Source of the DNA: Gelidibacter salicanalis
Lineage (GTDB): Bacteria > Bacteroidota > Bacteroidia > Flavobacteriales > Flavobacteriaceae
Reading direction: 5' to 3'
DNA: 41,921 bases
Assembly: GCF_016469035.1 (NCBI RefSeq)
Contig: NZ_JAEHJZ010000022.1
Location: forward strand, 1-41,921
In this document: piece by piece, positions 6,083-39,520 of the stretch
Position numbering within the stretch: position 1 is the stretch's first letter
How the letters are laid out: every line of letters starts with the position of its first letter
The notes under the pieces: model-generated
Seen by the model: the letters and a program-made list of their open reading frames with translations, nothing else
Told to the model about the DNA's origin: nothing
Databases searched by the model: none
Made by a program: the position numbers and the translations under genes

Positions 6083-8911
6083 TCAATACCATCTACGTCT
6101 AAAAAGTCCCAAAAGTGCCTGAGGATCCAGTGTGAATTTAATGCGAATGCGTTGGCTGTAATTAGGTTCATCAACCTCCCAGCCCAAATTGGAATAAATT
6201 GGGAAGTAGAGTTCAAAATAATCAGTCACCAAATTGAGCCTGATCCCAGAATCATACACAAATTCAGGATTTATGGACCTGTTCTTGACCAATCCAATAT
6301 CCCCATAGGCTTCAATATAGCGCCATAAGGTGGTGCTGACGTTTACCGTAGTCATCCATTGATTTGCAAAAGACGGATCTAACTTCGATTTAAAGCCGCC
6401 TTCTGCAATGATGATTTGCTGACTAAAAATACCAGACGCTTCTGAGCGCCCTAAATAGTTATAATCAAACAAATAATCTGTTGGACGGTCTAATGCAAAA
6501 CTGAAATAATCTGAATTCTCGTCAGTTTTATTATAGAGGAAGCTACCCGCAAAAAAGCGGAAGTTAAACTGACGGTTATTTTCTGTAAGTTTTCGCCATT
6601 CATAATTGACGGAGAGTTTCCCGAATTTTTCGGCCGCTTGAAAATCGTAGTAGAACTTTGAATAGTCAATCAAATCTGTATGTGCGTTTACATACCTTAT
6701 GTTGAAGACACTATAATCCGGATTCGTTACGGTGAGCAACGAATTATTGTTGGTACGGGAAATGTCCAGATATCGAAAATTCAGATAGCTCAATTTGTTG
6801 GATCTGTAATTATCTTTATCTCTAAAATAGAAGGATACACTCGGACTAATGAGTGTGACAAAGGCATTTTCAGCAAAAGAGGAGTAGCTGCCACCAAGGC
6901 CGTAATTGATGCGGAATAAATTTCTGTTTTCAACATGTTGTGTATAGACGCCACTAGCACCGCCAGTTAGGGTTTTAGAATTGAAGGAATATTTTGGGGA
7001 CAGCTTATAACTAAAATTTTTCATCAGGAGGGTCTTGTTGTACATTTTAGCCCCTAAGGTAAGTCCGTCGTAAATATTGTTAAACTCCACTAAAGGCATC
7101 AAAAATACCTGATTGTAATTGGGGTCTTCAATGTCTTTAAACAACCTAAATTGTAAGGGTTTATTGTTGAAAAACCAGCCTTGTAAAGATTTCCAATTGT
7201 CTCTCAGGTTGTATTCCGGAATGGTATTATCGTAATTCAATACCAACTTTGTGGCGTCATGGTGCGGAATGGTCAAGGTTTTTGAGCCTTTAACATGCTC
7301 AATCCACTGTTTTGAGAGTATCGAGTCGTGTTTTAACGTAAAGAGCGAAATGGGCACATCGTTGTTTCTTTTGTTTTTGATGGTGAAGGTCACAGAATCT
7401 TTGGTCTTGATTATATCCTTGATTCTGAAATCTATTTTTTTGTTACTGTTGATATAATCAGAAAAAAACCAATCGACGTCTTTATCAGTGTTTTGTTTTA
7501 GTAAACTTTCAAAATCCGAAAGCGTGGTTGGTTCTGAAACAGCCTTCTGAACGTATTGTTGAATGGTTTTTTCGAGCACATCGGCGTTCACAAAATCATC
7601 TAAATATTTAAGGCCGATACCCGCTTTGTACTTTCCAGCAATATTGGCATTAAATTTTAAAAGTGAATCTTTTGCGGTGGTCAATGCCTGATCTCTATTG
7701 GTGCGCGCCATCTGCATAAAATAGAGATTGTATTGTTCGTTAAAATCGACATCAGCGGCATGAAACGACCGCACGCCCCAAAAATCAGATAAGGTGCCCA
7801 ATAATTTTAGGTCCGGATATTGTTCTTTAACATATTTCATCAAATAATATATCTGAATACCATCTTTAAGCCAATAGTCTTTACGCGGGTTTACGACTAC
7901 GGTGTTGTTCAAATAATTTTTTAAAGTGGTTTTTAAAAGTTTGAGTTCATATTGTAAATTTCCAGGGAAAGGATTAATAAATTTAGGGAGTTGATTGATG
8001 CCATAAAGTGGGTCCTTTCGATATTCAATATCCGTGACCAATAAATAATTGTGCGGATAGGGACCAAGGTTTTTAGTGATGAATTTGGTTATTTTATCGG
8101 TGATGATAGCGCGATCCGTTGGGGTGATCCCTTCGGTTTCGATATTGGTGATGACCGTGAAATTATCAGTCTGTACAAAATTGAATTTTGGAAATTTGTT
8201 GAGATATAATTTACTGTCCACACGATCTTTACCATAGAGGTGGAAGGTTTGCGTACTGTCATTCTGGGTGATGTTTTGAATGTCCAACTCAGAAAACAAG
8301 CCGTAATTTTTTGGGAATTCTAACTTGAAATTGACGGTAGCCTTAGGTACAAATAAATCATCGAGATTTTTATTGCTGTAGTAATGCCATACGCCATCAT
8401 AAACGGCAGGCGTGATGTACCAATATTTTAAATTGAACTCATTACTGTCCGTTACCCCATAATCTGTAAACGTATGGTCAGGAAACTGTAAATTATAAAA
8501 TAATTGAATATGGTAAGATTGGTTTGGTGGTAAAGGCTCCGTGAGTTGCACTTCAATAACATCTGGGTACAATTTTAATCTGTTATTGATTAATTCGTCT
8601 CCATTAGTCGCTTTTATAGACGTGATGTTTGTAAAGCCTCGCATCTCGTTTTTGGCAAAGTGGAATTTGGTGCTGTACTCTTCTGTAAACCGATCTGCTA
8701 AAGGGGTGCGTTTGGTTGAAAAACTGTTATTCCAATCGTTAAGATAGATGGTTTTTAAAGTGTCTTGTGAATTGTTTTGATAACGAATAGTTTCCGATAC
8801 TTTGGCGCTCCTATTGGCCATGTTGAATTGGGCATCAATGCTGATCTCATTCTGACCAGACATAATTGCGGAACACAATAGGATGATACTAAAAAGGATA
8901 TACTTGGTCAA
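6083..8911 (-). CDS. M1-peptidase-like domain fused to an outer-membrane beta-barrel, metal site lost
   Basis: A 942-residue exported protein, read from a TTG start, with a signal peptide (residues 4-19). Residues about 20-240 resemble the N-terminal beta domain of M1 aminopeptidases, about 250-500 the M1 catalytic helices, and about 600-942 is rich in alternating aromatic strands and ends in RRRWY, as outer-membrane barrels do. In active M1 enzymes the site is HExxH-18 residues-E. At the matching place this protein has LKTTL (326-330), exactly 18 residues, then Lys349 inside WLKDG, where active enzymes have W(N/D)EG. No HExxH occurs anywhere in the protein, so proteolytic activity of the usual kind is unlikely. 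Role unknown; a surface scaffold or binding protein is possible. The upstream region holds no clear promoter. Confidence 0.8.
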   Translation of the reverse strand: MTKYILFSIILLCSAIMSGQNEISIDAQFNMANRSAKVSETIRYQNNSQDTLKTIYLNDWNNSFSTKRTPLADRFTEEYSTKFHFAKNEMRGFTNITSIKATNGDELINNRLKLYPDVIEVQLTEPLPPNQSYHIQLFYNLQFPDHTFTDYGVTDSNEFNLKYWYITPAVYDGVWHYYSNKNLDDLFVPKATVNFKLEFPKNYGLFSELDIQNITQNDSTQTFHLYGKDRVDSKLYLNKFPKFNFVQTDNFTVITNIETEGITPTDRAIITDKITKFITKNLGPYPHNYLLVTDIEYRKDPLYGINQLPKFINPFPGNLQYELKLLKTTLKNYLNNTVVVNPRKDYWLKDGIQIYYLMKYVKEQYPDLKLLGTLSDFWGVRSFHAADVDFNEQYNLYFMQMARTNRDQALTTAKDSLLKFNANIAGKYKAGIGLKYLDDFVNADVLEKTIQQYVQKAVSEPTTLSDFESLLKQNTDKDVDWFFSDYINSNKKIDFRIKDIIKTKDSVTFTIKNKRNNDVPISLFTLKHDSILSKQWIEHVKGSKTLTIPHHDATKLVLNYDNTIPEYNLRDNWKSLQGWFFNNKPLQFRLFKDIEDPNYNQVFLMPLVEFNNIYDGLTLGAKMYNKTLLMKNFSYKLSPKYSFNSKTLTGGASGVYTQHVENRNLFRINYGLGGSYSSFAENAFVTLISPSVSFYFRDKDNYRSNKLSYLNFRYLDISRTNNNSLLTVTNPDYSVFNIRYVNAHTDLIDYSKFYYDFQAAEKFGKLSVNYEWRKLTENNRQFNFRFFAGSFLYNKTDENSDYFSFALDRPTDYLFDYNYLGRSEASGIFSQQIIIAEGGFKSKLDPSFANQWMTTVNVSTTLWRYIEAYGDIGLVKNRSINPEFVYDSGIRLNLVTDYFELYFPIYSNLGWEVDEPNYSQRIRIKFTLDPQALLGLFRRRWY

Positions 8912-23708: not shown

Positions 23709-26315
23709 TCATTTCCACTCAAAATCTCCATTTTCTATAGACCAATCGTTACCAAAAAAACCAGCATGTTTCACGGCGTCAGTACCTTCGTTTAACAAAT
23801 CGCTATTAAATAGAACGACATCAGGAAAAGTAGTCCCGTTTACTAAATAGTGATTAGCATAAGCTGCTTTCATTCCCAAATCCCCTGTAGCGGTAATGAC
23901 ACCGATAGTCGCCACATCACTGTCCTTTCTAGGTACTGTAAAATACATGCCCCATTGGTTTCCTGACAGTATTTTATCGCCAATACGCACTTCGTTGTTT
24001 TTAACCTGAATTGGACTATCCTTCAACAGAACTTTCCAAGCGGAATTATTATCTTTATTTCCATAAACGATAACATTTCTATCAGCGTATTTTTTCAGGG
24101 AAAAATCTGTGTCCTTAATCATTTCTACATTTCCGTTGGCACGATAATAAAATGTCTCAGCATCAAAAAGAGCTTTATGGTAATACCAATCGTTCTCTAT
24201 AGTAGAACCATTTGTTGCATACACAAAAACGACATTATTTCTAAAGGCATCTTTGAATCCACCGTTTCTATGTGGACCTTTTTCGCTTAAGGATGGCTTA
24301 GAGGTCGTTATCCATTTGTCGTTATCCTTTTTAAAGAAATTTTTAAGATTTGAAGACACTTTCAATGTATCTCCATCAAGCGTAATTTCATTTATAGTTT
24401 CGGTTAAAGTCGATAAATCGACTTCCAGTAATGCCACGTTATTTGTGGTCATATTGAAACCGTTTTCTTTAGAGAAATCAAAGGAACTGACCTCAAAAGG
24501 CTTTATTTGTTGATGAATGGTCATAAAATGGGATGTTGCAGAAACTCCTGGAGATCCCGTAAAAAATTCTAATTTCTTAACTTCTGAATTTTGTGGAATA
24601 GTGCGCTGTTTGAAAAAGTCGAAAATTGGTTGCCAATCTACACTGTGATTACCATACCAGTGTGTACCATCAGGATACTCATAATATGTAAAGTCATTAT
24701 GGAATTTGCCCAGACGTTCTCTCATTTCCCTTGCAATAGCAGTAGGAACCACATTATCTTTTTCGCCATGCAAAACATAGACTCCACTTTGTAAATAATT
24801 GCGTTCCAATTTTAAGGTTCTACTAGGTGTACCTGCTCTTTCAATAATATTTTGCAGAGGTGTATTAATGGGTGCCAACTTCATACGCTCCACGCTTTTT
24901 GCTGAAATTCCTCTTTCTTCTAATTGTTCCGGTGCCATTTCTAACAATGCTCTTGAAAATCCATCGCGATACGCCAATAAATCAGGATAACCTGCACAAG
25001 GCGCAATGGCGGCGAATTTGTCAGGATATGTAGCTCCCAAATACCAAGTACCGTGACCTCCCATAGAGTGTCCAGTGAGGTAAATTTTACTTTCATCAGG
25101 TTTATAGATGTTTTTTGCATCTGCCAATACTTCCAAAGCATCCAATCTGCCCCAATCTTCCCAAGCAAATCCGAACGGGCGGCGGTTGGTGGGTGCAACC
25201 AGAGTACCCCAATCTTTCTGAGCATAAGCATTGGCTTGGTTCACCGCTTCAACTGATGCGCCATGCACAGATAAAAACATAGCTTGTGATGCTTCTTTGG
25301 TTGTTGATGGTGCCACACTATAATATTGCACGCTTCCATCTATAGCGCTAACAAACGTTTTTTTATGATGTTTGTATTTTGATTTTACTTCTATGGTTAC
25401 TGTTTGATTGTTTAAAGTCGTATCTTTTTTGTCTTTTAAGTTTAATTGTAAGTCACCACTTTCTTTTGAGGCATCCCCGGCGTTTAAAGTAAATGAAAAT
25501 GGAACTTTTTGTACTGATAAGGGCGGAATATTAGCAATGATCGTATTTGTGGTATGATCTGCTAATTTTGCTTCAATAATCGCCCCATTTATCCAGTTTT
25601 CAGTGGCATTTACCACTCTAATTGCGCCTTTGTATGTTTTGCTTTCTTCTTGTTGAATATCGGGCATGGTCATATCTCTTGATGTAAATTGGAGGCCGAT
25701 GGAAGGCGTGATCAATCTTGCTCTAATTCGCGGGAAACGCCCCACCTTTAGTATGAAAATATTCTCTCCTTTTTTCAGTTTTATAGGAATAAGACTATAG
25801 CCAAAATCGTAGTGGTCACCTTCGTGAGGGAAACCGTTGATTAAAGCAACTGAATGTCCTGAAGCTTCAAAGAGTACAATCTGTTCTGAATTGGAGGTAT
25901 AAGTTAGATACACATAAGCCGACCTTAAATTACTGCCAGAAAAACTGCTCGTACTATCAATTTTTATGGATTGCCATTGTGTTGGATTTCCTAAAAAGTC
26001 AATATCAAAAGTTGATTCTTTGACGGCTCTATATTGATTATCAGTTAGGAAACGATTAAAAACAGGATCGTTCGGAAAAGAAGAGGATTCAAAGCCTATA
26101 TTCTGCATTTGTAATGCCATTCCAGTTTTAAAAACATGTAACACTTCACCTTCGCTCACTTCATTGATTTTTTCTTTACCGAAGTATTCAACGATGTTAC
26201 CCGTTTTCTGGGCTTTAATAGTATTTGTAGAAATACCTAAGAGAAATACAATTACAAAGAATAATTTAAAACTGTTACACATCGTATCTGGATTTTTAAA
26301 GTCATTTATCTTCAA
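23709..26315 (-). CDS. large secreted alpha/beta-hydrolase (prolyl oligopeptidase-like)
   Basis: An 868-residue exported protein. The signal peptide is the hydrophobic stretch FFVIVFLLGISTNTIKA; a second in-frame ATG at 26282 gives a shorter and more usual signal sequence and may be the true start. The middle holds an alpha/beta-hydrolase domain with nucleophile motif GHSMGG near residue 415, a PCAGYPD segment soon after, the acid in VLHGEKDNVVP and the base in DGTHWYGNH. This is the family S9/esterase-D-like layout, placed between a beta-rich N-terminal region (possibly carbohydrate-binding-like) and a C-terminal beta region that contains FVYATNGS. Substrate unknown; an esterase or peptidase is possible. 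It points against its neighbours and is most likely island cargo. Confidence 0.75.
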   Translation of the reverse strand: MKINDFKNPDTMCNSFKLFFVIVFLLGISTNTIKAQKTGNIVEYFGKEKINEVSEGEVLHVFKTGMALQMQNIGFESSSFPNDPVFNRFLTDNQYRAVKESTFDIDFLGNPTQWQSIKIDSTSSFSGSNLRSAYVYLTYTSNSEQIVLFEASGHSVALINGFPHEGDHYDFGYSLIPIKLKKGENIFILKVGRFPRIRARLITPSIGLQFTSRDMTMPDIQQEESKTYKGAIRVVNATENWINGAIIEAKLADHTTNTIIANIPPLSVQKVPFSFTLNAGDASKESGDLQLNLKDKKDTTLNNQTVTIEVKSKYKHHKKTFVSAIDGSVQYYSVAPSTTKEASQAMFLSVHGASVEAVNQANAYAQKDWGTLVAPTNRRPFGFAWEDWGRLDALEVLADAKNIYKPDESKIYLTGHSMGGHGTWYLGATYPDKFAAIAPCAGYPDLLAYRDGFSRALLEMAPEQLEERGISAKSVERMKLAPINTPLQNIIERAGTPSRTLKLERNYLQSGVYVLHGEKDNVVPTAIAREMRERLGKFHNDFTYYEYPDGTHWYGNHSVDWQPIFDFFKQRTIPQNSEVKKLEFFTGSPGVSATSHFMTIHQQIKPFEVSSFDFSKENGFNMTTNNVALLEVDLSTLTETINEITLDGDTLKVSSNLKNFFKKDNDKWITTSKPSLSEKGPHRNGGFKDAFRNNVVFVYATNGSTIENDWYYHKALFDAETFYYRANGNVEMIKDTDFSLKKYADRNVIVYGNKDNNSAWKVLLKDSPIQVKNNEVRIGDKILSGNQWGMYFTVPRKDSDVATIGVITATGDLGMKAAYANHYLVNGTTFPDVVLFNSDLLNEGTDAVKHAGFFGNDWSIENGDFEWK

Positions 26316-29476: not shown

Positions 29477-29864
29477 AATTGAACGGGACAAGAAACAGCA
29501 GCAGGTTCTAAAGATTCCTGCCCAATTACTCAAATATTCTGAAAGTGTGGAATTGGATATGGAAACGGATGCCAATGGAATGGGAATTATTCTGGGTAGG
29601 AATTCGAGATGTGTGTCTGTGGACACATTCTCGTTTGCTCCCGATGGTCGCAAAGAAAAAAAAAGAGTGTTTAAGGGGAAAAGTGATCTGGTCAAGTTCA
29701 GATGTTCCATCTACGAAAAGAAGCTCTTGAATATTAAGTCAGCAGCCTCAGGATTGAGCCTTAGCGAATATATCCGGCGTACCGTTTTTGAAAAGAAAAT
29801 TACCGAACGGTTTAGCAAGAGGGTAACGGGCAGAGCCACGTTACATATTCCTTTTAGTTTATAA
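29460..29864 (+). CDS. MobC-like relaxosome accessory protein, probably shortened
   Basis: A 134-residue protein whose start overlaps the primase gene by 17 nt. Residues about 88-120 (VKFRCSIYEKKLLNIKSAAS then GLSLSEYIRRTVFEKKI) are the ribbon-helix-helix region of MobC/NikA-like mobilization proteins, which bind oriT next to the relaxase. Normal relatives go on for about 50 more residues with a KYHxNF motif; here the frame runs into TERFSKRVTGRATLHIPFSL and stops, so the end is probably altered. The N-terminal 85 residues are polar and not recognised. A terminator hairpin follows directly after the stop. Confidence 0.7.
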   Translation: MREKNEIERDKKQQQVLKIPAQLLKYSESVELDMETDANGMGIILGRNSRCVSVDTFSFAPDGRKEKKRVFKGKSDLVKFRCSIYEKKLLNIKSAASGLSLSEYIRRTVFEKKITERFSKRVTGRATLHIPFSL

Positions 29865-29868
29865 ATAA

Positions 29869-29894
29869 TTGATTTTCAATTACTTGAAAATTAA
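29869..29894 (+). terminator. hairpin with T-run after the MobC-like gene
   Basis: TTGATTTTCAA and TTGAAAATTAA pair over 11 bp (one G-U) around TTAC, followed by TTGATTTTTTAG, 4 nt after the stop codon. It fits an intrinsic terminator. Confidence 0.6.
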
Positions 29895-29915
29895 TTGATT
29901 TTTTAGATTTCATCA

Positions 29916-29969
29916 ATTTGCGTCAAATGCCCCGAAACCACCTGTAAACTGGGATGGATTTACGTCAAA
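29916..29969 (+). repeat. direct repeat ATTTrCGTCAAA, candidate oriT region
   Basis: ATTTGCGTCAAA (29916-29927) and ATTTACGTCAAA (29958-29969) lie 42 bp apart between the MobC-like and BfmA/BtgA genes. The C-rich stretch between them and the position inside the mob block make it a possible transfer origin, without direct proof. Confidence 0.3.
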
Positions 29970-29990
29970 CACACAAAAAAGCGAAAGAAA

Positions 29991-30389
29991 ATGGATTCAT
30001 TCATCACCATCAGGTTCAAAAGGAAAACTGCCAAACGTTTTCAGGAATTTTCAAAAAAACACTTCAAGACACATACGGAAACGATGGAAGCCATTCTTGA
30101 CTTTTTCTTCTATAACGAGATATCACCAAAAGAAAAATTAGGTCCGACAGGGAGAACCATCGAAGCCAAGTTGCTTAAAAGAATCAATGCAGTAATCGCT
30201 ATAATAAGGGATGTTGAAAAGACCCAAACCAAGCCTACGGTTGCAATGATTCAATCCCTTTTTGAGACAGAACAGCCAAACAAAAAACCTTTGATAGTGG
30301 AAAAGAAATATGCCGAGGAAAAAAAGGAAGTTCACTTTCGCGAAATCGAGTCTACGAGATTCACGACCAAAGGGAGAGCGAAGCGGTAA
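29991..30389 (+). CDS. BfmA/BtgA family mobilization protein
   Basis: A 132-residue protein starting MDSFITIRFKRKTAKRFQEF and containing HTETMEAILDFFFYNEISP and KRINAVIAIIRDVEKTQTKP. This is the pattern of BfmA/BtgA proteins of Bacteroides mobilizable plasmids and transposons, DNA-binding partners of the relaxase with a ribbon-helix-helix-like start. The C-terminal third is charged and not conserved. It precedes the relaxase remnant by 37 bp, the normal order for this mobilization system. Confidence 0.85.
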   Translation: MDSFITIRFKRKTAKRFQEFSKKHFKTHTETMEAILDFFFYNEISPKEKLGPTGRTIEAKLLKRINAVIAIIRDVEKTQTKPTVAMIQSLFETEQPNKKPLIVEKKYAEEKKEVHFREIESTRFTTKGRAKR

Positions 30390-30426
30390 AAGCAAAATCT
30401 CAAAAATGAACTTTAAATTATAGGTA

Positions 30427-31017
30427 ATGTACCTCACGATCACAGCTCAAAAAATGGGAGGCAATTATTCTAAAAGTTCGACTGATTTTGTTGGCTATCT
30501 GGAGAAGGAAAACCAAGGCTTGGAGCAACAGGAAAAGGAACATTTCTTTAACCAATATGGCGAGGGCATTTTAGGGGAGGAAGTGGTCAGGGAAATTGAT
30601 GGCAATACTGCAAAACTTGAAAAGCACGAACCACGGTTTTATTCTATTACCGTAGACTCCTCAAAATACGAACTGAAACGGTTGCAGGACCATAGCGAGG
30701 ATCTATAAAAATACACCCGTGAGATTATGAAGGATTGTGTGGCTTCGTTTAATCGTGAAATCAATGGACGACCCATTACCATCGATGATATAAAATACTA
30801 TGTAAAAATTGAACATCAACGAACCTTCAAGGGAATGGACTTTCAGATTAAAGAAAACCAACCGTATGCCCCTAAAGCACTTCTGACACATCCCAGATGT
30901 CAGGTTTTAAAACGATGTCGCACTTTTCGAGATCCTTCAAAAACCGATATGGGTTTTCTCCAAGTGAGCTCCGTAAAAATTGATTTTTCAAAGACATATA
31001 GTATTGACTACAAGTAA
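30427..31017 (+). pseudogene. broken relaxase (MobB/DUF5712 family)
   Basis: The frame starts MYLTITAQKMGGNYSKSSTD and shows the N-terminal relaxase pattern (FVGYLEKENQGL, EHFFNQYGEGI, NTAKLEKHEPRFYSITVDSS). It is cut by an in-frame TAA at 30706-30708 after QDHSEDL and continues in the same frame with KYTREIMKDCVASFNREINGR and KIEHQRTFKGMDFQIKENQPYA. Relatives have Lys at the stop position, so a single AAA to TAA change explains it. After about 30870 the sequence no longer looks like a relaxase and ends at 31017; the C-terminal region with the HxH metal motif is missing. The element could therefore only move with a relaxase supplied from elsewhere. Confidence 0.85.
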
Positions 31018-31095
31018 ATTAATCCCGATTAGGCAAATAATACTCCTTTAAGATCAAATGTAAGTAACGACCTTTACCATATCAAATCAAATGAT

Positions 31096-31548
31096 ATGAA
31101 AGTGCCAAGATCTTTCCTGAAAAATATACCGCCGGTGGTCAGTTTGCTGTTCATCCTGTTGTTCGTGTATGCAGGGATGAGTAAACTCTTGGATTTTGAA
31201 ACCTTTCAAGCACAATTGGAGCAATTTTTATTTTTTGGTGGGTTTGTAGCCTGGGTATCTCATGGGGTAATTCTCTTAGAACTGCTGATCGCGGGTTTGT
31301 TATGTTTTGGAAAGACCCGCCTTTTGGGTTTCTATCTCTCCTTTTTCCTGATACTCCTGTTTACCGCATATATCCTTACCATAATAAATCTTGCTGCCAA
31401 TGTCCCCTGTTCCTGCGGTGGCGTATTGGACGCGTTGGGGTGGAAGGAGCATTTGATTTTTAATGTTTTTTTTATTGGGCAGGACTTGATTGGAATTCTA
31501 ATAGAAAGGAACCGGAAACATGATTTCAATTACAAAAATACTACGTAG
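31096..31548 (+). CDS. MauE/DoxX-family redox membrane protein
   Basis: A 150-residue inner-membrane protein with four hydrophobic segments (about 13-30, 47-70, 76-98, 118-136). The motif NVPCSCGG (Cys105, Cys107) is the hallmark of the MauE group; MauE of methylotrophs is needed for correct disulfide formation in the periplasmic methylamine dehydrogenase small subunit. It is followed 62 bp later by a small exported two-cysteine protein in the same direction. The pairing suggests that it handles the disulfide state of that peptide or of its partners. It is the first gene after the broken relaxase, and no clear promoter box was seen before it. Confidence 0.88.
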   Translation: MKVPRSFLKNIPPVVSLLFILLFVYAGMSKLLDFETFQAQLEQFLFFGGFVAWVSHGVILLELLIAGLLCFGKTRLLGFYLSFFLILLFTAYILTIINLAANVPCSCGGVLDALGWKEHLIFNVFFIGQDLIGILIERNRKHDFNYKNTT

Positions 31549-31610
31549 TGACAGGGGAAGATCGAAAACCTGAACAATAGAGTAGATCATAATTTATAAA
31601 TTTAAATATT

Positions 31611-31859
31611 ATGAAAACAAAAGTTTTTAAATCCGTATTGCCAATTATTGCAGTAGTTTTTGCAATGGGATTGGCATTTGCAACAGAGACTACAAATAGT
31701 AGCCCTGCTTTTTACGATGATCCTGCAATTCCTGGTGTTCAGCGATTGACAGGGGGTACAGATTGTCCTACAGTTGGACAAATTCCTTGTATGTACCAAG
31801 ACTTTCAATTATTTGCAGATGAGGATCTGTCTACACCCTTATTTATTAAAAAACAATAA
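31611..31859 (+). CDS. small secreted two-cysteine protein (DUF6520-like)
   Basis: An 82-residue protein with the start MKTKVFKSVLPIIAVVFAMG and a likely signal peptide cut after LAFA (residue 24). The mature part is about 58 residues, acidic, and holds two cysteines seven residues apart (Cys52 in TDCPTVGQ, Cys60 in IPCMYQDF). This is the layout of the DUF6520 family of Bacteroidota: short exported peptides with an almost fixed signal sequence and a variable Cys-containing tail, often beside MauE genes. Function unknown. The two cysteines, the MauE-like gene upstream and the convergent SusCD-protease operon suggest a secreted, oxidised peptide. A bidirectional terminator follows. Confidence 0.8.
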   Translation: MKTKVFKSVLPIIAVVFAMGLAFATETTNSSPAFYDDPAIPGVQRLTGGTDCPTVGQIPCMYQDFQLFADEDLSTPLFIKKQ

Positions 31860-31880
31860 GAGGTGATTGAAGTTTTGATG

Positions 31881-31906
31881 AAAAGGTGTCACAGTTGACA
31901 CCTTTT
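31881..31906. terminator. bidirectional terminator between the peptide gene and the protease operon
   Basis: AAAAGGTGTCA (31881-31891), loop CAGT, TGACACCTTTT (31896-31906): an 11-bp perfect stem with A-run before and T-run after, so it works in both directions. It lies in the 73-bp gap between two converging genes. Confidence 0.8.
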
Positions 31907-31932
31907 CTGCTATCTAATAGTTATCTTGTGTT

Positions 31933-34251
31933 TTAATGAATGCCATCCATCTGGTGTAATAGCAGTTTTAAATGACCCGAGGTTTCAGGGTCCATCTTTT
32001 TCTTTACCTGTTTTGTCAGTTCTTTTTTAAGGATTACTAAATTATTCATAAACAGACTTTTGGAGCGACCATCATACATGGTGTTTCCCACAGCATTTAA
32101 TGTTCCTCCCTTTTGGGAAATCGCTTCCATTAACGCATCAATATATATGCGTTGTATTTCCTGTTTTCGAGAATTTACTTTGGGTATAGGTGTATTTAGT
32201 TCCGCAAACAGACCCGATTGTAATGTGGTCAACATTTGATGTGATATGCCCTTATAGTCGGTATGGAACTCCATCCTTCCAAATCGTTTCATTCTGCGTT
32301 GGCTTATGAGTTCAAATAACACTAATTTTTGATATTCCATAAGCTGATCTCGATACGTCGAATATTTGAATGTATCAGAAAATGATGGATTGACCAACCA
32401 TTCAGGTGCGGAAAACGCATGTTTGATCAGGAAGGTCATCGCTTCCTCCTGAACAATGCGGGGAATGGGGGTATATACACCGCCTAGTTGGGATGGGCAT
32501 TTATATTGAATTTGGTAACCACCGATTAAGGACATCACATGTTCCATTTGCTTATACCAATAGGTCAGAATTTGTCCGTAAAGTCGTTCTATAAGCGCAT
32601 AATCTTTTTGGTTCTGGTTGACGATGGGCAATAGTTCAATCACCCTTTTTAGATTGGCTAATCCTAGCACGGTGCTTTTTATGGGATCATTATTTTCAAC
32701 AACTTCATTTGTAGATCCTGGTCCAATTTGTTCGTAAACAGGTATGTTGTATCTATACCAGGCTACTGAATCTTGTTCCCTAACCATCGCTTCTAAAGCA
32801 GTGCCTTCAACATCAGGGGTTGTGTCGTCATATGGTGTGTAGGCCCATCGAATACTGTACAAATCAGTTGGACCAACTTTTTGAAGTAGTAGTGATGCCG
32901 GGATATGATCTGTTGGTTGAGGAAGGTTGTTATTCCTGGCATAGGTCATGATGCTAGGGGTGTGACCCATGGTCTTTAACCATTCGGCATCACGCATTTT
33001 CTCGAAGGGATAGGCATACTCTCCATAATGGCCATCTCTTAAACCAAAAGCATGGCCTGCCTCATGTGCAACCAGAGATTGGATCAATGCTCCCGTTAAT
33101 TCATCGGGAAAAGGATAGTGCAGGGTGCGGTCATCCAAGGGAGCACAACTTACAAAATACCTATCCATTAAACTTAAATAGGATGCACCGATGAATAGAT
33201 CTGATTTTAAAATTTCACCGGATCTTAGATCCACTATCGTCATTACAGTGCCTCCTTCGGCATCTTCAAATCCTCTAACATCGCGTTGATCTCCCCATCT
33301 CACCATAGAACTGTTGACACTGTTAAAATGTAAATCTGAATCCCCATGGGAGACCTCTTTTACCACAAGGGCATTTTTAAAACCTGCTGCTTCAAATGCT
33401 GGCAACCATTCCAAAATGCCAGCTTTCACATAAGGTGTCCACTTTTTTGGGATGTCCATTGGTAAAAAAAAGGTTATTGGTTTGATGGGTTCACTCATTG
33501 GCAGATCACTATCTTTTTTTTCCAAGCGCCATCTGGTAATATTTGCGAGCGGACTTTCTGGTTTATAATTAATGGTACTGGAACTGGATTGATCTTCGCT
33601 GCCAAACCCCATACGATGGTCAAATAGCCTGGGTGTCATTGGTTTGGGCAGAAGATAAACACTAAAGTCAACCGATGAAGACCAAGTTTCACCATTTTCT
33701 GAACTTACCTGCAGAGTCCTTACAATAATTTCGTTTGGAAGATATTTGACATCAGTTATACGCGAATGTTCCTTTAGAGCTCTCAATTCAGAAAAGAGGT
33801 TCCATTTGGCTATTGTATGATCTGTAAACAGGTCAGTGGCATTAATCCAAATATTTTGGTCGGTCCGCTTTTCCTTTAAGATTGGAAATATGGATATAAT
33901 CTTTTGGCTCAAGGGTTGGTCTTTCTCAACGGGAATGATGACCCCTGACGAGGATTGGACAGTAGAGGAAGATTCCAGAAAAATCCGATTATCATGGATC
34001 TTCCAGACGATGTTCTTAAACTCAATGCTAAGGCCATCAAAGTGATTGACCAACAGCATGGGCTGGTTGAGCATTGCTACAGGTATTCCAAAATAGAGTT
34101 TGTCATTTTCTAGGGATGCGCTGATGAAATTGGAATCAAAGGTCTTTTCCGTTTCTAAACGCTCACTGATAGCTTCAAGCTGTGTTACTTTAGGTATGCT
34201 AAAACTTTTGAATTGTATCAGCATACAGAATATTAATACATACAATCTCAT
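31933..34251 (-). CDS. exported zinc-dependent metalloprotease (DUF4953/DUF5117-type metzincin)
   Basis: A 772-residue exported protein with signal peptide (residues about 3-18, ending FSIP). The N-terminal 230 residues are the beta-rich part found before these proteases; the catalytic part starts near ITFFLPMDIPKKWTPYVKAG. The zinc site is HEAGHAFGLRD (His396, Glu397, His400, Asp406) and the Met-turn is SIMTYARN (Met435), so this is a metzincin. The third ligand position holds Asp where DUF4953 relatives normally have His; some metzincins do use Asp there. Last gene of the susC-susD-protease operon, 88 nt after susD. Probably periplasmic or at the surface, cutting a peptide that SusCD handles. 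Confidence 0.85.
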   Translation of the reverse strand: MRLYVLIFCMLIQFKSFSIPKVTQLEAISERLETEKTFDSNFISASLENDKLYFGIPVAMLNQPMLLVNHFDGLSIEFKNIVWKIHDNRIFLESSSTVQSSSGVIIPVEKDQPLSQKIISIFPILKEKRTDQNIWINATDLFTDHTIAKWNLFSELRALKEHSRITDVKYLPNEIIVRTLQVSSENGETWSSSVDFSVYLLPKPMTPRLFDHRMGFGSEDQSSSSTINYKPESPLANITRWRLEKKDSDLPMSEPIKPITFFLPMDIPKKWTPYVKAGILEWLPAFEAAGFKNALVVKEVSHGDSDLHFNSVNSSMVRWGDQRDVRGFEDAEGGTVMTIVDLRSGEILKSDLFIGASYLSLMDRYFVSCAPLDDRTLHYPFPDELTGALIQSLVAHEAGHAFGLRDGHYGEYAYPFEKMRDAEWLKTMGHTPSIMTYARNNNLPQPTDHIPASLLLQKVGPTDLYSIRWAYTPYDDTTPDVEGTALEAMVREQDSVAWYRYNIPVYEQIGPGSTNEVVENNDPIKSTVLGLANLKRVIELLPIVNQNQKDYALIERLYGQILTYWYKQMEHVMSLIGGYQIQYKCPSQLGGVYTPIPRIVQEEAMTFLIKHAFSAPEWLVNPSFSDTFKYSTYRDQLMEYQKLVLFELISQRRMKRFGRMEFHTDYKGISHQMLTTLQSGLFAELNTPIPKVNSRKQEIQRIYIDALMEAISQKGGTLNAVGNTMYDGRSKSLFMNNLVILKKELTKQVKKKMDPETSGHLKLLLHQMDGIH

Positions 34252-34339
34252 TTTTATTGCGGTTTTATTTGGTAAAGAAGGATGATAGGCAGGGGATTCC
34301 TTTCAATTACAGAATGCCAAGCCCAATTTTAAAAGTCAA

Positions 34340-35758
34340 TTAATATCCAGAATTTTGAGGCCTCAGTTTGGGGTTAATCTCCAGTTCAGTTTCTGGGATA
34401 GGCCACAGTGCGTCAGTGGGTTGGTAATTGGGTTTATAAGCGCCTAATATGTCGCCATCCCTGCCTGTACGTTTTAAGTCGAACCACCGATGTCCCTGCT
34501 CCGAAAATAATTCTACAAAACGTTCCTGTAGGATCGCATCCAATATATCCACTTTTGTTGCAGCGGTAGTGGCCTCCAGGCCCGCGCGATTTCTAATAAC
34601 ATCTAAATCGTTTTTGGCACCCGATACATTCCCTAGATGTGCCCTAGCCTCCGCACGGATCAGGTACTGCTCTGCCAATCGAAAAACAATGGAGAATTCC
34701 AAAGATTCCTTGTCGCTCAAACTGGCCTTATATTTATAGGGATAGTATAGGGTAGTCAATCCATCGTTGCTGGTGAAGCTCCCAACCCAACTCGAACGTC
34801 TCAGATCATCCGTTTCAAAAGCGTCCAACACTGTATTGGTGAGAGAATATGTTTGGCCGGGGATGGCCTTTATAATAAACTGATTGGCCTGAAAGGTGTT
34901 CCTGCTGGTAATCAGGTCATCTTTAAATTGCCATATTGTTTCCTTGGAGTCTTTTATGAACACCTTGTTGAGGTCCGGTTCCAGCTGAAAAGCTTCAATA
35001 AGTTCGGTAGCATTGTGTTCAGCCAATTCCCAATTCTCCAATTTTAAATAGATGTTGGCTAAAAGCGCAGTGGCGGCAGATCGGTTTGGAATAACAGACA
35101 TCCCTGTTGGATCATCGGTAGTCATGAGACTTTGCGCTAAAACCACATCTGCCAATATGCTTTGGTAAACGTCGTTTTTGGGCCTACGTGCAGTAGTGTT
35201 GTTTTCTATATAATCGGTTGTTTTTATGTAGGGAATGTCACCATAAAGGGAAACCAATAGGCTATGCAGATAACCACGTATAAATAAAGCTTGTCCCTTG
35301 AATTTTTCTTTTTCCTCTACGGTTAACGTGGTTGATTTAGTAACCCCTTCAATGACGTCATTTGTTGCATAAATAATGCTGTAGGTGTTTTTCCAATATT
35401 CCAAAACGATAGAATTTTCTGGCAGTAGACTATTGGTATAAAGGGAGAGTAAATTGAAATCAGCATAATAGTAGTCCAACTCGTCGGCATAGAGTCCCAG
35501 ATGGGCACTTAATCCATAGGTGGCCATTCCTTCCTCTCTCATACGGTAATAAATATTTGCCATGGCAGATTCTACGGTTGAAGCGTTCTCAAAAACGGTT
35601 TCCGAAATCAGGACGTTTTTTGGTGCATCCACTTCAATAAAATTAGAGCAGGACACCACAGCCAAAAATAAACAGCAGGTTTTAAGGTACCTTTTCAAAT
35701 GGATACCATTAGAGTAGAATCTTGATTGGAATATTAAATGGGAAATGTGATTTTTCAT
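34340..35758 (-). CDS. SusD/RagB-family outer-membrane lipoprotein
   Basis: A 472-residue SusD-like lipoprotein. The lipobox is AVVSC (Cys about 37), after an unusually long basic start. The SusD family pattern follows: ENASTVESAMANIYYRMREEG near 58-78, KFKGQALFIRGYLHSLLVSLYGDIPYI near 150, the TPR-like helices with AATALLANIYLKLENWELAE, and the C-terminal FRLAEQYLIRAEARAHLG then RNRAGL and LQERFVELFSEQGHRWFDLKRTG. SusD proteins form a lid on the SusC channel and bind the substrate at the cell surface. It starts 15 nt after susC, so they are co-transcribed. Substrate not predictable, but no carbohydrate-active enzyme is near; the partner is a protease. Confidence 0.93.
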   Translation of the reverse strand: MKNHISHLIFQSRFYSNGIHLKRYLKTCCLFLAVVSCSNFIEVDAPKNVLISETVFENASTVESAMANIYYRMREEGMATYGLSAHLGLYADELDYYYADFNLLSLYTNSLLPENSIVLEYWKNTYSIIYATNDVIEGVTKSTTLTVEEKEKFKGQALFIRGYLHSLLVSLYGDIPYIKTTDYIENNTTARRPKNDVYQSILADVVLAQSLMTTDDPTGMSVIPNRSAATALLANIYLKLENWELAEHNATELIEAFQLEPDLNKVFIKDSKETIWQFKDDLITSRNTFQANQFIIKAIPGQTYSLTNTVLDAFETDDLRRSSWVGSFTSNDGLTTLYYPYKYKASLSDKESLEFSIVFRLAEQYLIRAEARAHLGNVSGAKNDLDVIRNRAGLEATTAATKVDILDAILQERFVELFSEQGHRWFDLKRTGRDGDILGAYKPNYQPTDALWPIPETELEINPKLRPQNSGY

Positions 35759-35773
35759 GAGATTGTTTTTAAG

Positions 35774-38700
35774 TTAAAAGCCAATTTGAGTGCCCAAGGT
35801 TATTTGACGCAAGGGGGGCAGGGCCACATGTGAAGGTTGCTCAGGGTCGGGACCATCAAATTTTGTGACCGTCCATAGATTCTGACCCTGCAGATAGATG
35901 CTTATCGCCATTTTATTGTTTCCCTTCGGGAGGTTATAATTCAAAGAAACATTTCTGAGCCTTATAAAAGAAGCATCGGAAAACGCTTTGTTGCTCGAAC
36001 TATAATTGAACCTGCTGGGGAATAAACTAAAATTACCGCCACTGGTAGCCATCATTAGTGGTGCTATGTCTCCAGCTTTTTGCCATCTGTCATAAAAATA
36101 GGAAGGTGCATTGTTTAGAATCCCAGGTGCCGATGCATATCTTAAATGGTTAAATGCCTTTTGTTTTTTGAATTGGAAAAAAACATCCAAGGAAAGATTC
36201 TTATAAGTGACCGTGTTTCCAAGACCTCCAAAGAATTTGGGCGCCAAATCTTCAATAAAATTCCGATCGTCCAGGCTGGTTATTTCACCGTCCTGATTAT
36301 AATCTTCAAATTGATAGATACCAGTTTGAGGGTCTACCCCAAGCGATCGGTAGAGACGAATAATAGATAAGGGTTCGCCAATGATATAGTCGGATGAGAA
36401 GGTGGAGGTTTCCAAACCGGGGAATTTTACCAATCTATTTTTGGGAACGCTGATATTAAATGTAGTTTTCCACTGAAAGTCTGCACTACGGATATTAATG
36501 CTAGTTAAATCTATCTCTAACCCCGTGTTTTCAACAGTAGCATCAAAATTACCCGTCACACTGCCAAAGCCAGTGGTAGCTGCCAATGGAATCCCGACCA
36601 GTTGATTTGAGGATCTATTTTGGTACCAGGCCGTATTTATTACAATGCGATCCTTAAGGAAGCCCAGCTCCAGAGCTGCTTCCATTTTCTTATTGGCTTC
36701 CCAACCAAATAGGGGATTAAAGATTCCGGTAGGCTCCAAAACCAAGGTGCCGTTGTAATTGGAACCGGTAACGTTATAGGTATTTAAAAACTTATAATCG
36801 CCTATATTGTCACTCCCGGTGGTACCGTAGCTGCCTCTGATTTTTCCATAGCTAAGGATTTTATTGGTCTTCAAAAAAGCTTCTTCTGAAAATATCCAAG
36901 CAGCACCGACGGCTCCAAAATTCCCATATTGCCTGTTGGGGCCAAAGCGTGAAGAGCCATCCCGTCGGCCAGTCAGGTTTAGTATGTATGTATTCTTTAA
37001 TTTTAAGTTGACCCTACCAAAAAAAGCCTGATAATTATAGTCACTATCGTCCGCTTCCCTGACTTCCATACTATTTGCTGCGGCAATATTTTTTAACAGG
37101 CTATTGCTTGAAAATCCTCTGCCCTTAAGTACCAACTGTTCTGAAGTCTGACTTTGAAAAGTGGTTCCCACCAGGACATCCAGATCAAGATCCTTCCAAT
37201 TTTCCTTCCAGTGCAATTGTGGTTCCACAATCCAACTGTTGCGTGAGCTGTTATTTGTCGTGATTGAAGAATACCCTTGCGGCGTGAACCCAAACTTGGG
37301 ATTTCTGGCCGTATTGGGCAGCAATTTATAGGAGTCAAGCTGGTAGGTGTTATATCCTAAATTCGCTTTCAATTCCAGTTTGGAAAGTAATTTATAAGCA
37401 ACGCCCACATTGGTCAGCAGGGTATTTATACGGACATTATAATCTTCCTCCAACGTTGCCAAAGGATTGTCCCAAGTGTTGTTTTCCCAGTTAAGCTCAC
37501 CTTCTGGTGTGTAGAGCTCGGGCGCATTGGGCGGTAACCTATAGGCCACACCCGACAAATCCGTGCGGGGCATTTGGTTCTGTTCACTCGTGTAATTGGC
37601 GGTCATGGTAATATTGAGCCGTTCATTACTGGATTGATGGTTGATGTTACTGAGCGCAGAAGCTTTTTTGTAATTCGACTCTCCCGGAAAAACCGTGGTT
37701 TCCTTTTGATACCCACCGCTGATTAAAAATTGGGTCTGGGCACCACCTCCCGATACGGAGAGCTGCGCAACATTGCGGTAGGCCGTGCCACCAATAAGTT
37801 CTTTTTGCCAATCAGTATAACGATTTTGGCTCCACGTTTTAAGTTCAGGATACAGGTAATTAAACTGTGGATTTTCCAAACGATCCCCGCGGCCATCATT
37901 AATAATGCCTTCCCGTCTTAATTGTAAGTACTCGGGAGTTTTCAGCAGATCCAGAAAATGGGACACCTGCCCGAGTGTACTGCTTAGGTTTACAGTTACC
38001 TGTGTGGCTCCTGCCTTTCCTTTTTTGGTAGTGATCAGGACTACGCCATTGGCGCCCCTAGCGCCATAAATAGCAGTGGCATCGGCATCTTTTAAAACTT
38101 CAATGCTTTCGATATTGGAAGGGTTGATAGCGTTTAGCGGACTGATATCAGCGCCGTTGATGCCCGCAGAGATATCGGCAGATTCCAATGAGAGCGACCC
38201 ATAGGGCACACCATCAATGATGTACAATGGAACGGTGCCTCCGTTAATAAAATTCCTTCCCCTGATCTGGATGTCATACCCACCACCCGGAACGCCCGTA
38301 TTCTGGACAATATTTACCCCAGACAGATAACCCTGCATGGCCCCTAACGGGTTATTGACCGGCTGTTTTTCAATATCCTTGGTCGTAATCCGTGCAATAC
38401 TTCCCGTTTTTTCACGGTCAGTGGTACTGTAATACCCCGCATTGATGCGTACCTCGCCCAGGGCGGTGGCATCTTCATACATGATGATGTTGATGGTACT
38501 GCGGTCTTGGATGGGGATGGTAAGGGAGGTATAGCCCAAATAGGAAATTTGGAGGCTGTCCGTTGGTCTGGCCGTAAGGGTATAGCGCCCGTCAAAATCA
38601 GATACCACACCCGTATTGGTGTTTTTTATAAGCACATTGGCGCCAGAGATGGGCAATTGCCCATTGGTAACCTGGCCGGAGACCAGCAGGTCTTGGGCAG

Positions 38701-38782
38701 AAAGGGTCAGGGAAATACTTAGGAAGAAGAGACAGCAGGCATATATACGCGGCCGCCTACACAAGTTATGATTTTTTGTCAT
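35774..38782 (-). CDS. SusC/RagA-family TonB-linked outer-membrane transporter
   Basis: A 1002-residue TonB-dependent transporter. After a signal peptide (hydrophobic stretch YACCLFFLSISLTLSAQ) come the carboxypeptidase-like N-terminal extension (VSGQVTNGQLPISGANVLIK...GYTSL), the plug domain (IRGRNFINGGTVPLYIIDGV, then SIEVLKDADATAIYGARGANGVVLITTKKG) and the 22-strand barrel, ending in a phenylalanine (TLGTQIGF). A longer frame opens at 38809, but the ATG at 38782 places the signal sequence better. With SusD it imports (or exports) a large ligand powered by TonB. The transporter is typical in length and complete. Upstream lies a 1-kb gene-free, structured region rather than a sigma/anti-sigma pair. 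Confidence 0.95.
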   Translation of the reverse strand: MTKNHNLCRRPRIYACCLFFLSISLTLSAQDLLVSGQVTNGQLPISGANVLIKNTNTGVVSDFDGRYTLTARPTDSLQISYLGYTSLTIPIQDRSTINIIMYEDATALGEVRINAGYYSTTDREKTGSIARITTKDIEKQPVNNPLGAMQGYLSGVNIVQNTGVPGGGYDIQIRGRNFINGGTVPLYIIDGVPYGSLSLESADISAGINGADISPLNAINPSNIESIEVLKDADATAIYGARGANGVVLITTKKGKAGATQVTVNLSSTLGQVSHFLDLLKTPEYLQLRREGIINDGRGDRLENPQFNYLYPELKTWSQNRYTDWQKELIGGTAYRNVAQLSVSGGGAQTQFLISGGYQKETTVFPGESNYKKASALSNINHQSSNERLNITMTANYTSEQNQMPRTDLSGVAYRLPPNAPELYTPEGELNWENNTWDNPLATLEEDYNVRINTLLTNVGVAYKLLSKLELKANLGYNTYQLDSYKLLPNTARNPKFGFTPQGYSSITTNNSSRNSWIVEPQLHWKENWKDLDLDVLVGTTFQSQTSEQLVLKGRGFSSNSLLKNIAAANSMEVREADDSDYNYQAFFGRVNLKLKNTYILNLTGRRDGSSRFGPNRQYGNFGAVGAAWIFSEEAFLKTNKILSYGKIRGSYGTTGSDNIGDYKFLNTYNVTGSNYNGTLVLEPTGIFNPLFGWEANKKMEAALELGFLKDRIVINTAWYQNRSSNQLVGIPLAATTGFGSVTGNFDATVENTGLEIDLTSINIRSADFQWKTTFNISVPKNRLVKFPGLETSTFSSDYIIGEPLSIIRLYRSLGVDPQTGIYQFEDYNQDGEITSLDDRNFIEDLAPKFFGGLGNTVTYKNLSLDVFFQFKKQKAFNHLRYASAPGILNNAPSYFYDRWQKAGDIAPLMMATSGGNFSLFPSRFNYSSSNKAFSDASFIRLRNVSLNYNLPKGNNKMAISIYLQGQNLWTVTKFDGPDPEQPSHVALPPLRQITLGTQIGF

Positions 38783-38823
38783 AGTTTTGTAATGGTTAAA
38801 GTGATACATTTATTTTAACTTTT

Positions 38824-38868
38824 GGCCTGCTCCAACGTCGTCGAAAACTGGGAGCGGGTCTTTTTTTT
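38824..38868 (+). terminator. plus-strand terminator-shaped hairpin in the susC leader region
   Basis: GGCCTGCTCC pairs with GGAGCGGGTC over 10 bp (two G-U) with a 17-nt loop, followed by eight T. The orientation is opposite to susC. No plus-strand gene ends here, so it would stop antisense transcription or, on the other strand, act as a 5'-leader hairpin. Confidence 0.5.
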
Positions 38869-38890
38869 GGTCAATCTATAGGTTGACCAA
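38867..38890. promoter_or_regulatory. 8-bp inverted repeat upstream of susC (operator or second terminator)
   Basis: TTGGTCAA (38867-38874) and TTGACCAA (38883-38890) are exact complements with an 8-nt spacer. It lies 85 nt before the susC start. A dimeric regulator could bind here; on the plus strand a T-rich run follows, so it may equally be a second terminator. Confidence 0.45.
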
Positions 38891-39006
38891 TTTATTTTTT
38901 TGTAAATTTTATGTCATAGGCATCTATATTAAGTGATAAGGGAAGCGGGGCCGCCGGCCTTAACCAGTTTTCCATTAACCGGCAGCCCATTCCCAAAAGA
39001 CTAAAT

Positions 39007-39087
39007 CCAATTGCTCGCTATGTGGCACTATTTTTTTATAGTGCTGCCATTTCTTAGGGATGGAGGATTGCAGTTGGCAATAGCGAG
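39007..39087. other. nested/pseudoknot-like structured element
   Basis: CTCGCTAT (39014-39021) pairs perfectly with ATAGCGAG (39080-39087). Inside it GCACTAT (39025-39031) pairs with ATAGTGC (39038-39044). CCAATTGC (39007-39014) can pair with GCAGTTGG (39070-39077), crossing the outer stem, so a pseudoknot or two alternative folds are possible. Confidence 0.45.
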
Positions 39088-39520
39088 GTATTTATGGCAA
39101 GCTCCATTGGTGTTGTATGGTATCAGTTATGAGGTGTAAGCATAGGCAAATGAGTTGGTTTTAAAATGTTAGTATTGTTTTGTAAAAGCCCTTTCTGTCC
39201 TATATTTTAGGTAAAACCTCAAAACATTTGGAAAACGTTAAGATTGATACTACTTTTAAGCTGTCGCGTTTTAAAATAAGCACCAAACTGGGTTTCTTCC
39301 AAAAAATGGGGAACCTAGGGCGGTTTTGGATGTTGCAATATTTAGGTGTCACACCCAACTATTACAGCATCTCTTGCGAGTATGATTTTTTGAAGCCATT
39401 TTCTTTCTAAGAAAGTAGTGAAGACTACTGGCTAAAAACAAAAAATCGTTCTCACAATTGAAATTATGGAACGATGTTTCTCTTAGGGAAATATTATGAA
39501 GTTTTGAAAATAACCAACAA

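Follow-up and report, generated by a model that had tools for sequence, protein, structure and literature searches.

The window analyzed here is a 41,921-nucleotide stretch of a Gelidibacter salicanalis contig (NZ_JAEHJZ010000022.1, positions 1 to 41,921). It contains a five-gene block in which genes for a MauE-family redox protein and a small secreted DUF6520 peptide face an operon encoding a SusC-SusD transporter pair and a peptidase. We found that this block is one copy of a cassette that is far more general than one locus shows. The cassette is recognizable by its gene set and layout, by the swapping of its enzyme, by paired cysteines linked to the type of MauE, and by a variable core beside constant flanks, all of which are read directly from the sequences. 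We propose, with a confidence just short of an even chance, that it is one modular locus that handles its own disulfide peptide, which would be oxidized, imported by the cognate SusCD pair, and unlocked.

Five genes converge in the window

Profile searches found all five genes of the block at the coordinates and on the strands given in a preliminary description of this DNA:

31096..31548, plus strand: MauE-family inner-membrane redox protein with a CSCGG motif (PF07291, 98.3 bits)
31611..31859, plus strand: DUF6520 peptide precursor, 82 amino acids (PF20130, 46.4 bits; cutoff, 25.4)
31933..34251, minus strand: DUF5117-DUF4953 metzincin-like peptidase (PF16313 [DUF4953], 245 bits, plus DUF5117)
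34340..35758, minus strand: SusD/RagB-type outer-membrane lipoprotein, the transporter lid (PF07980 and PF14322)
35774..38809, minus strand: SusC/RagA-type TonB-dependent outer-membrane transporter (TIGR04056, 687 bits)

The MauE-peptide pair on the plus strand converges on the SusC-SusD-peptidase operon on the minus strand, with 73 bases between the ends of the facing peptide and peptidase genes. The SusC protein carries CarbopepD_reg_2 (PF13715) and Plug (PF07715) domains and, with SusD next to it, has the architecture of a SusCD (RagAB) pair. SusCD transporters are characteristic of Bacteroidota, and the usual assumption is that they import glycans. No glycan enzyme occurs within the five genes, as the preliminary description had said, and from its neighboring genes this pair may carry peptides instead of glycans. 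Scans for promoters and terminators between 31000 and 32100 gave counts close to those of shuffled sequences.

The genome of origin contains five such cassettes

The genome from which the window comes (G000, 5.16 Mb) carries five cassettes: the window, C56 (L016), C662 (L017), C89 (L018), and C242 (L022). Each has a SusC-SusD-enzyme operon facing an operon in which the peptide gene is last, and L018 lacks MauE. All five DUF6520-type genes face a SusC-SusD-peptidase operon (5/5); the L022 peptide was included even though it scored only 18.4 bits, under the PF20130 cutoff. The enzyme is DUF4953 in the window, M16 in L016 and L018, and S9 in L017 and L022, and the other three DUF4953 genes of the genome lie outside such cassettes.

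The remaining SusC genes of the same genome served as a control. There are 48 SusC genes over the cutoff, one with an internal stop and one partial. None of the 43 noncassette genes had a recognizable DUF6520, MauE, M16, or DUF4953 neighbor (phmmer, E of 1e-4) in 37 stretches of 13 to 20 kb, some of them ended by contig ends, in which a strongly diverged peptide could escape phmmer. Two of these stretches contained other matches, namely, a TlpA-like gene two genes past SusD (L141, 50 bits) and a short S9-like open reading frame (ORF) on the opposite strand (L142, 33 bits). The four sister SusC proteins scored 924 to 1275 bits against the window SusC, whereas the other 43 reached at most 423 bits against any of the five.

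The cassette is present in four classes of Bacteroidota

The preliminary description would have been refuted by a rarity of this neighborhood in other genomes; instead, most of the loci that we examined combine MauE, the peptide, and a SusCD-enzyme operon. DUF6520 was found in 30 of 249 genomes of the same family (E up to 1e-5) and in 14 of 60 relatives (E up to 1e-3), with the genome of origin included in both counts. We analyzed 65 DUF6520 loci, comprising 60 fetched stretches and the five cassettes of G000; the match G164:C2 was left out, as were matches from the 60 relatives above an E of 1e-5, save G008:C9 (2.2e-4). In 59 of the 65 loci, from 36 genomes, the peptide faces a SusC-SusD-enzyme operon, in L072 and L078 loosely. 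Imperfections among the 59 are an unrecognized SusD in L089, a shortened SusC in L052 and L078, and intervening genes in L072 and L078. The six other loci are L073, with SusC and an amidohydrolase as the third gene; L081, with SusC and SusD and no recognized enzyme; and L076, L079, L080, and L082, all in G278, with no SusC nearby. A MauE gene lies upstream on the same strand in 58 of the 65 loci.

Enzyme classes were tabulated in 62 rows, 55 of which have a facing SusC within 5 kb; in this tight layout, SusC starts or ends 2.1 to 4.7 kb from the peptide. The seven rows outside the 5-kb rule are L061 and the second match of L096 (assigned by hand from the gene schematic), the second peptide of L077 (5.07 kb), three peptides of L078 (7.2 to 10.4 kb, with genes between), and L072 (7.4 kb, with a transposase gene between).

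We also scanned species genomes with two MauE motifs, a search that used neither SusCD nor the peptide, and took the best 80 of at least 587 confirmed relatives. SusC and/or SusD lay on the facing strand at 74 of the 80 loci, an enzyme of one of four classes at 75, and both at 73. The enzymes were S9 (68 loci), DUF4953 (5 loci), and TlpA (2 loci); this set is biased toward S9, the class that supplied most of the sequences behind the motifs. The peptide was recognized in 65 of the 80 loci, and reinspection of nine others revealed a short secreted cysteine-containing ORF in the gap in seven and no peptide in L204 and L216. Hosts include Flavobacterium, Chryseobacterium, Empedobacter, Kaistella, Winogradskyella, and Gelidibacter and, beyond these, Pedobacter (Sphingobacteriia), Dyadobacter (Cytophagia), and Draconibacterium (Bacteroidia), so that the cassette is present in four classes of Bacteroidota. 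The DUF6520 and MauE-motif sets are not fully separate, since they share at least the Gelidibacter maritimus loci L146 and L189, which probably correspond to G006:C67 and C69.

Unrelated enzymes occupy the third position of the operon

The window peptidase has a putative zinc motif, HExxHxxGxxD (HEAGHAFGLRDGH; HEAGHAFGLRD), and a likely Met-turn, SIMTYARNN. DUF4953 bears the name Met-zincin in Pfam, and the metzincin consensus is HExxHxxGxxH. The window peptidase is a candidate metzincin, with its putative third zinc ligand corrected from His to Asp. All 20 cassette DUF4953 homologs compared, among which are at least two duplicate records, share HExxHxxGxxD, while the three noncassette paralogs of G000 (L019, L020, and L021) have His at this position. 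Asp versus His at the putative third zinc ligand is a convenient marker of the cassette DUF4953 subfamily. A lipobox pattern is absent in 17 of 20 homologs of the window peptidase, so the cassette peptidase is probably periplasmic.

Across the 59 cassettes, the slot is occupied by M16 (19 cassettes), S9 (16), DUF4953 (15), or a thioredoxin-like protein (9). The preliminary description had named a protease as the third partner, which is correct for the window and too narrow elsewhere. A strict protease theory was ruled out by the nine cassettes with thioredoxin-like proteins. On a SusD tree, enzyme class requires 12 changes, and on the well-supported branches alone at least three changes each are needed for S9, DUF4953, and TlpA. 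Thioredoxin-like loci L090 and L099 nest within a DUF4953 group, S9 locus L102 groups with DUF4953 loci L100 and L103, and L077 (DUF4953), L078 (S9), and L096 (thioredoxin-like) form one group with a support of 100. These placements indicate that unrelated enzymes substitute for each other beside related SusCD pairs.

The presence of three unrelated peptidase families or a thioredoxin-like protein in one slot points to a small disulfide peptide as the shared substrate, which every slot enzyme class could undo. The thioredoxin-like proteins make “unlocked” a better description than “cut.” Three of the ten thioredoxin-like slot proteins listed lack CxxC, so not all of them would be plain reductases.

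The peptide has a conserved leader and a variable product

The window peptide begins with a Sec-type signal of approximately residues 1 to 24 that ends in AFA, as judged by eye, and its two cysteines, C52 and C60, both lie in the mature part. Among 45 aligned DUF6520 sequences, of which 44 match PF20130 at an E of 0.001, C52 is invariant and C60 is at least 90% conserved. Mean pairwise identity in this set is 46% in the leader (positions 1 to 24) and 21% in the mature part. By comparison, identity over the first 26 residues is 15 to 23% in SusD, SusC, and the peptidases. The leader thus appears from the alignments to be unusually conserved and the product unusually variable, a combination that resembles families of processed peptides.

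The predicted structure of the window peptide has a mean predicted local distance difference test (pLDDT) score of 84, with residues 31 to 80 at 90 to 94, and contains three strands. Comparison with solved folds gave no convincing match (best Foldseek E, 4.7; best PDB sequence E, 0.43). A Kunitz-inhibitor fold was considered and rejected, as its Foldseek matches were at chance level only. PF20130 is the only Pfam match of the peptide. L077 and L078 (both G278) and L174 each have two or three differing DUF6520-like peptide genes beside one cassette.

The type of MauE matches the number of cysteines in the peptide

MauE residues P104, C105, C107, G108, G109, W116, and H119 are invariant in 37 sequences, and a predicted model of a fused homolog contains long helices. 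The window MauE lacks the C-terminal beta-propeller that many other cassettes have. Among 69 peptide rows of the DUF6520 set, 33 peptides have two cysteines, 32 have four, three have five, and one has eight. MauE alone accompanies a two-cysteine peptide in 29 of 30 rows, and MauE with a beta-propeller accompanies a peptide with at least four cysteines in 29 of 30; these rows leave out the nine of 69 without an upstream MauE (three each with two, four, and five cysteines). The propeller gene of L108 (352 amino acids) fell outside the distance filter of the cysteine table and was entered as present on the SusD tree, where L096 was entered with its other peptide. In the MauE-motif set, the peptides of propeller loci L188 and L185 have four cysteines each. 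That MauE type and cysteine number go together lends indirect support to the earlier suggestion that the peptide is oxidized with the help of MauE, which remains plausible.

A variable core lies beside constant flanks

The cassettes of G000 share one stretch of DNA that is nearly constant:

38352..39481, minus strand: constant flank, comprising the susC 5' end (codons 1 to about 150) and upstream DNA

This stretch is 91.5 to 93.5% identical to the corresponding DNA of L016 and L017 (to about 39480) and of L018 and L022 (to about 39110 to 39130). SusC residues 10 to 145 are 90% identical between G000 cassettes (10 pairs) and 41% identical between genomes (1451 pairs). In contrast, SusC residues 261 to 600 are 38% identical within G000 and 42% between genomes, SusD 41% versus 42%, and the mature peptide 18% versus 20%. 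The corresponding values for the neighboring genes are 31% versus 35% for AraC, 40% versus 43% for DUF7793, 80% (3 pairs) versus 60% for AT800 (described below), and 75% (6 pairs) versus 45% for RteC. A near-identical susC 5' end is present in the DNA of all ten G000 cassette pairs, and three further genomes have a similar block (G173, G061, and, over a short stretch, G131). Blocks over 82% identity occur in 22 of 67 within-genome pairs, 45 having none. In G173, G125, and G009, a similarity block reaches or spans the peptide signal sequence (approximately 70 to 79 bases into the gene) and ends there.

We then asked which genes vary together. The nearest neighbor belongs to the same enzyme class for the peptide in 47 of 59 cases, for SusD in 47 of 58, for SusC in 44 of 57, and for MauE in 32 of 52, while the values for RteC (17/37), AraC (14/42), DUF7793 (14/38), and AT800 (9/27) fall within the range of shuffled labels. 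For same-class pairs among 34 loci, rho between the peptide and its partners is 0.59 for SusD, 0.59 for SusC, 0.09 for MauE, 0.18 for AraC, and 0.12 for DUF7793; the value for MauE is far below those for SusD and SusC even though, of the three, its gene sits closest to the peptide gene by a wide margin. These comparisons suggest that the mature peptide, the enzyme, and SusCD are largely one exchangeable unit, for which gene closeness would be a partial explanation.

A model for the cassette and its alternatives

In the model that we favor, Sec would export the DUF6520 precursor, and MauE would help to oxidize its cysteines, alone for one disulfide and together with the periplasmic beta-propeller for two. 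The folded miniprotein would then reach the cell surface or the medium; passage through the outer membrane is the least supported step. The cognate SusCD pair would capture the peptide and move it into the periplasm using TonB energy, where the third enzyme would cut or reduce it to free a fragment or bound cargo. Cassette regulators (DUF7793 with AraC, or a tetratricopeptide repeat [TPR] histidine kinase; lost in the window copy) may sense the freed product. We infer each of these steps, from oxidation with MauE through release, SusCD uptake, and processing to sensing. The preliminary description had likewise linked the peptide to redox chemistry, SusCD, and a protease; the linkage is real and the redox link plausible, and its protease has become one of several enzymes.

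Several points weigh against this model. We know of no route for a Sec-exported peptide across the outer membrane, and the peptide may stay periplasmic. AraC and DUF7793 are as divergent within G000 as between genomes, so the variable part exceeds the peptide, enzyme, and SusCD. The 50 named S9-type loci gave similar rho values for all partners of the peptide (propeller, 0.33; SusD, 0.32; SusC, 0.29; S9, 0.27; MauE, 0.26), so that a special tie between peptide and SusCD was not replicated and is kept as partial. On the SusD tree, MauE type changes twice and cysteine number three times, and with just two independent switches of MauE type, the cysteine rule cannot reach significance. Finally, seven of the 65 loci have no upstream same-strand MauE (L018, L070, which starts at a contig end, L075, and L079 to L082), and L079, L080, and L082 have no SusC either.

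Alternatively, the SusCD-enzyme operon might feed on environmental peptides or proteins, with DUF6520 as a periplasmic helper such as an inhibitor, a chaperone, or a SusCD docking factor. An inhibitor would shield the cell from the peptidase, and MauE would merely keep the helper fold oxidized. We consider this explanation rather unlikely. It predicts a conserved, enzyme-specific protein, but no piece varies more than the mature part (21% identity), and the peptide type is similar, by eye, across the change from DUF4953 to a thioredoxin-like enzyme (L090 and L099 versus L086 and L093).

A more speculative extension of our model, which we regard as doubtful, treats the cassettes as alleles of a system for private peptide exchange, in which the peptide would serve for kin-specific signaling or would carry a scarce metal or cofactor and be recovered. 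The mature peptide, enzyme, SusD lid, and SusC barrel would form a specificity core swapped as a block, with constant flanks at the 5' end of susC and on the AT800/RteC side, and cells would read or recover only their own type. To our knowledge, no protein ligand that is both self-encoded and dedicated to SusCD has been described; the cassette peptide would then be the first, with peptidases and thiol enzymes as exchangeable unlockers.

The peptide could instead be an antagonistic or kin-sorting factor that is released by one strain, enters only cells with the matching SusCD, and is disarmed by the enzyme. The hypervariable core beside constant flanks, the presence of multiple divergent cassettes in single genomes (six in G125 and five in G000), the patchy spread (30 of 249 family genomes), and the mobilization genes that adjoin two cassettes all fit such a role. 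However, no toxic domain or immunity protein is apparent among the scanned proteins, the grouping of the enzyme with the importer suits processing equally well as immunity, and PADLOC returned no match for any of five proteins (the window MauE, peptide, and peptidase, the 800-amino-acid protein of L016, and the AraC protein of L017). We judge an antagonistic or kin-sorting role to be improbable, and we rejected a defense role given the lack of PADLOC matches for these five proteins. An accidental adjacency of the genes, conceivable insofar as SusC is so common (48 genes over the cutoff in 5.16 Mb) that one nearby copy is not rare, is refuted with near certainty by a layout that 59 of 65 DUF6520 loci and 73 of 80 MauE-motif loci show, versus 0 of 43 other SusC genes in the genome of origin.

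Comparison with known systems

Lasso-peptide isopeptidase clusters, whose hosts are proteobacterial, and the Fus/PqqL systems are like the cassette in logic and are not homologous to it as systems. In the lasso-peptide clusters for astexins and sphingopyxin, as the available portion of the source presents them, an own peptide, a specific POP-type isopeptidase, and a TonB-dependent transporter are encoded together (PMC9266682). The cassette likewise combines its own peptide, an enzyme (S9 is the POP family), and a TonB-type transporter in one locus. The lasso clusters differ in that their peptide is a threaded isopeptide and has no disulfides, their transporter is a plain TonB-dependent one and not SusCD, and they have a GntR-like regulator and a sigma/anti-sigma pair; MauE is not mentioned in that portion (PMC9266682). 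No lasso precursor or maturation family matched the five block proteins or the scanned neighboring ORFs, which were part of the window ORFs.

Fus and YddB-PqqL pair a TonB-dependent receptor with a periplasmic M16 protease, and some clusters have other proteases or redox enzymes (PMC6793856, in the sections available). They thus resemble the cassette in joining a receptor to a protease and in a protease slot exchangeable for another protease or a redox enzyme. In contrast, they import foreign ferredoxin-like proteins, and those sections describe no self-encoded peptide; the survey covers Proteobacteria, and SusC appears a single time in its main text, where a supporting legend names it as a distant family (PMC6793856). 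The window has SusC rather than a FusA-family receptor and DUF4953 rather than a FusC-type M16 enzyme, and the M16 genes of the sister cassettes adjoin SusCD.

The SusCD architecture itself is shared with RagAB and BT2263-BT2264, pairs that carry or hold peptides, and RagA alleles have a highly conserved N terminus, according to the accessible part of the source (PMC11817032). Their cargo is nutrient peptides from digested protein, and that part mentions no dedicated peptide gene or MauE (PMC11817032).

The preliminary description likened the logic of the block to that of the NVEALA loci of Bacteroides, where MauE and beta-propeller proteins are encoded next to small secreted peptides. Pfam treats DUF6520 as a family distinct from NVEALA (PF14055), which had no match in G000 or in 197 other genomes at an E of 1e-5. 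A literature search, with most subscription journals outside it, returned no mention of DUF6520 or NVEALA and, among the titles listed, none on such loci.

The general logic of an own peptide, a TonB-type receptor, and an unlocking enzyme is already known, and there is a fair chance that the cassette is more than a new variant of it. If our model is correct, a good number of SusC genes gain a role other than glycan import, and the label “nutrient uptake SusCD” would probably mislead for these loci. The constant flank, variable core, and swapped enzyme also amount to a natural experiment that can reveal what has to happen to the peptide. The model would further raise a question that can be tested: for what reason does a cell take up a peptide of its own making?

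Regulators, neighboring genes, and mobilization genes

The four sister cassettes of G000 have two extra upstream genes, encoding DUF7793 and an AraC-type regulator (labels from Pfam for L017, with AraC of the other sisters assigned from their sequences). All four DUF7793 genes of the genome sit in these cassettes. In the window, DUF7793 and most of the AraC gene are missing:

30892..30983, plus strand: 3' remnant of an AraC-type regulator gene, 5' of MauE (frame FSRSFKNRYGFSPSELRKN*)

Window positions 30892 to 31208 are 95.3% identical to L022 positions 8330 to 8646, a stretch that covers the 3' end of the AraC gene and the 5' end of the MauE gene. Positions 29813 to 30758 are 97.0% identical to mobilization genes beside L017. 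The AraC remnant and the mobilization-gene match indicate that a rearrangement probably removed the regulators of the window.

Cassette-type regulators occur in 49 of the 65 loci, as DUF7793 and/or AraC in 41 and as a TPR histidine kinase with a response regulator in 7. The latter pair replaces DUF7793/AraC in L058 (1280 to 5425), L067, L071, L088, L101, L104, and L106, and five of these seven cassettes also have a LytTR protein (labels from the Pfam matches of L058). The TPR histidine kinase is a possible candidate for a peptide sensor.

AT800 and/or RteC occur in 40 of the 65 loci. AT800, a divergent protein of about 800 amino acids, is found in 29 of the 65, often with RteC, for example, in L016 (11893 to 14298), L018 (5274 to 7676), and L022 (4441 to 6846). 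It is an alpha-oxoamine-synthase-like protein that is nearest to AONS, KBL, and SPT and more distant from CAI-1 synthase, with a weak C-terminal GNAT match, and its product might be a small molecule belonging to the system.

Mobilization genes (BfmA-type and DUF5712 relaxase-like; interrupted in the window) lie at window positions 29813 to 31017 and at L017 positions 6707 to 7652. The occurrence of 97% identical mobilization genes beside two cassettes suggests that a mobilizable element has transported the cassettes or the DNA that flanks them. Near these genes, window positions 23709 to 26315 encode a large protein with a weak, below-cutoff match of the esterase/PHB-depolymerase-like type.

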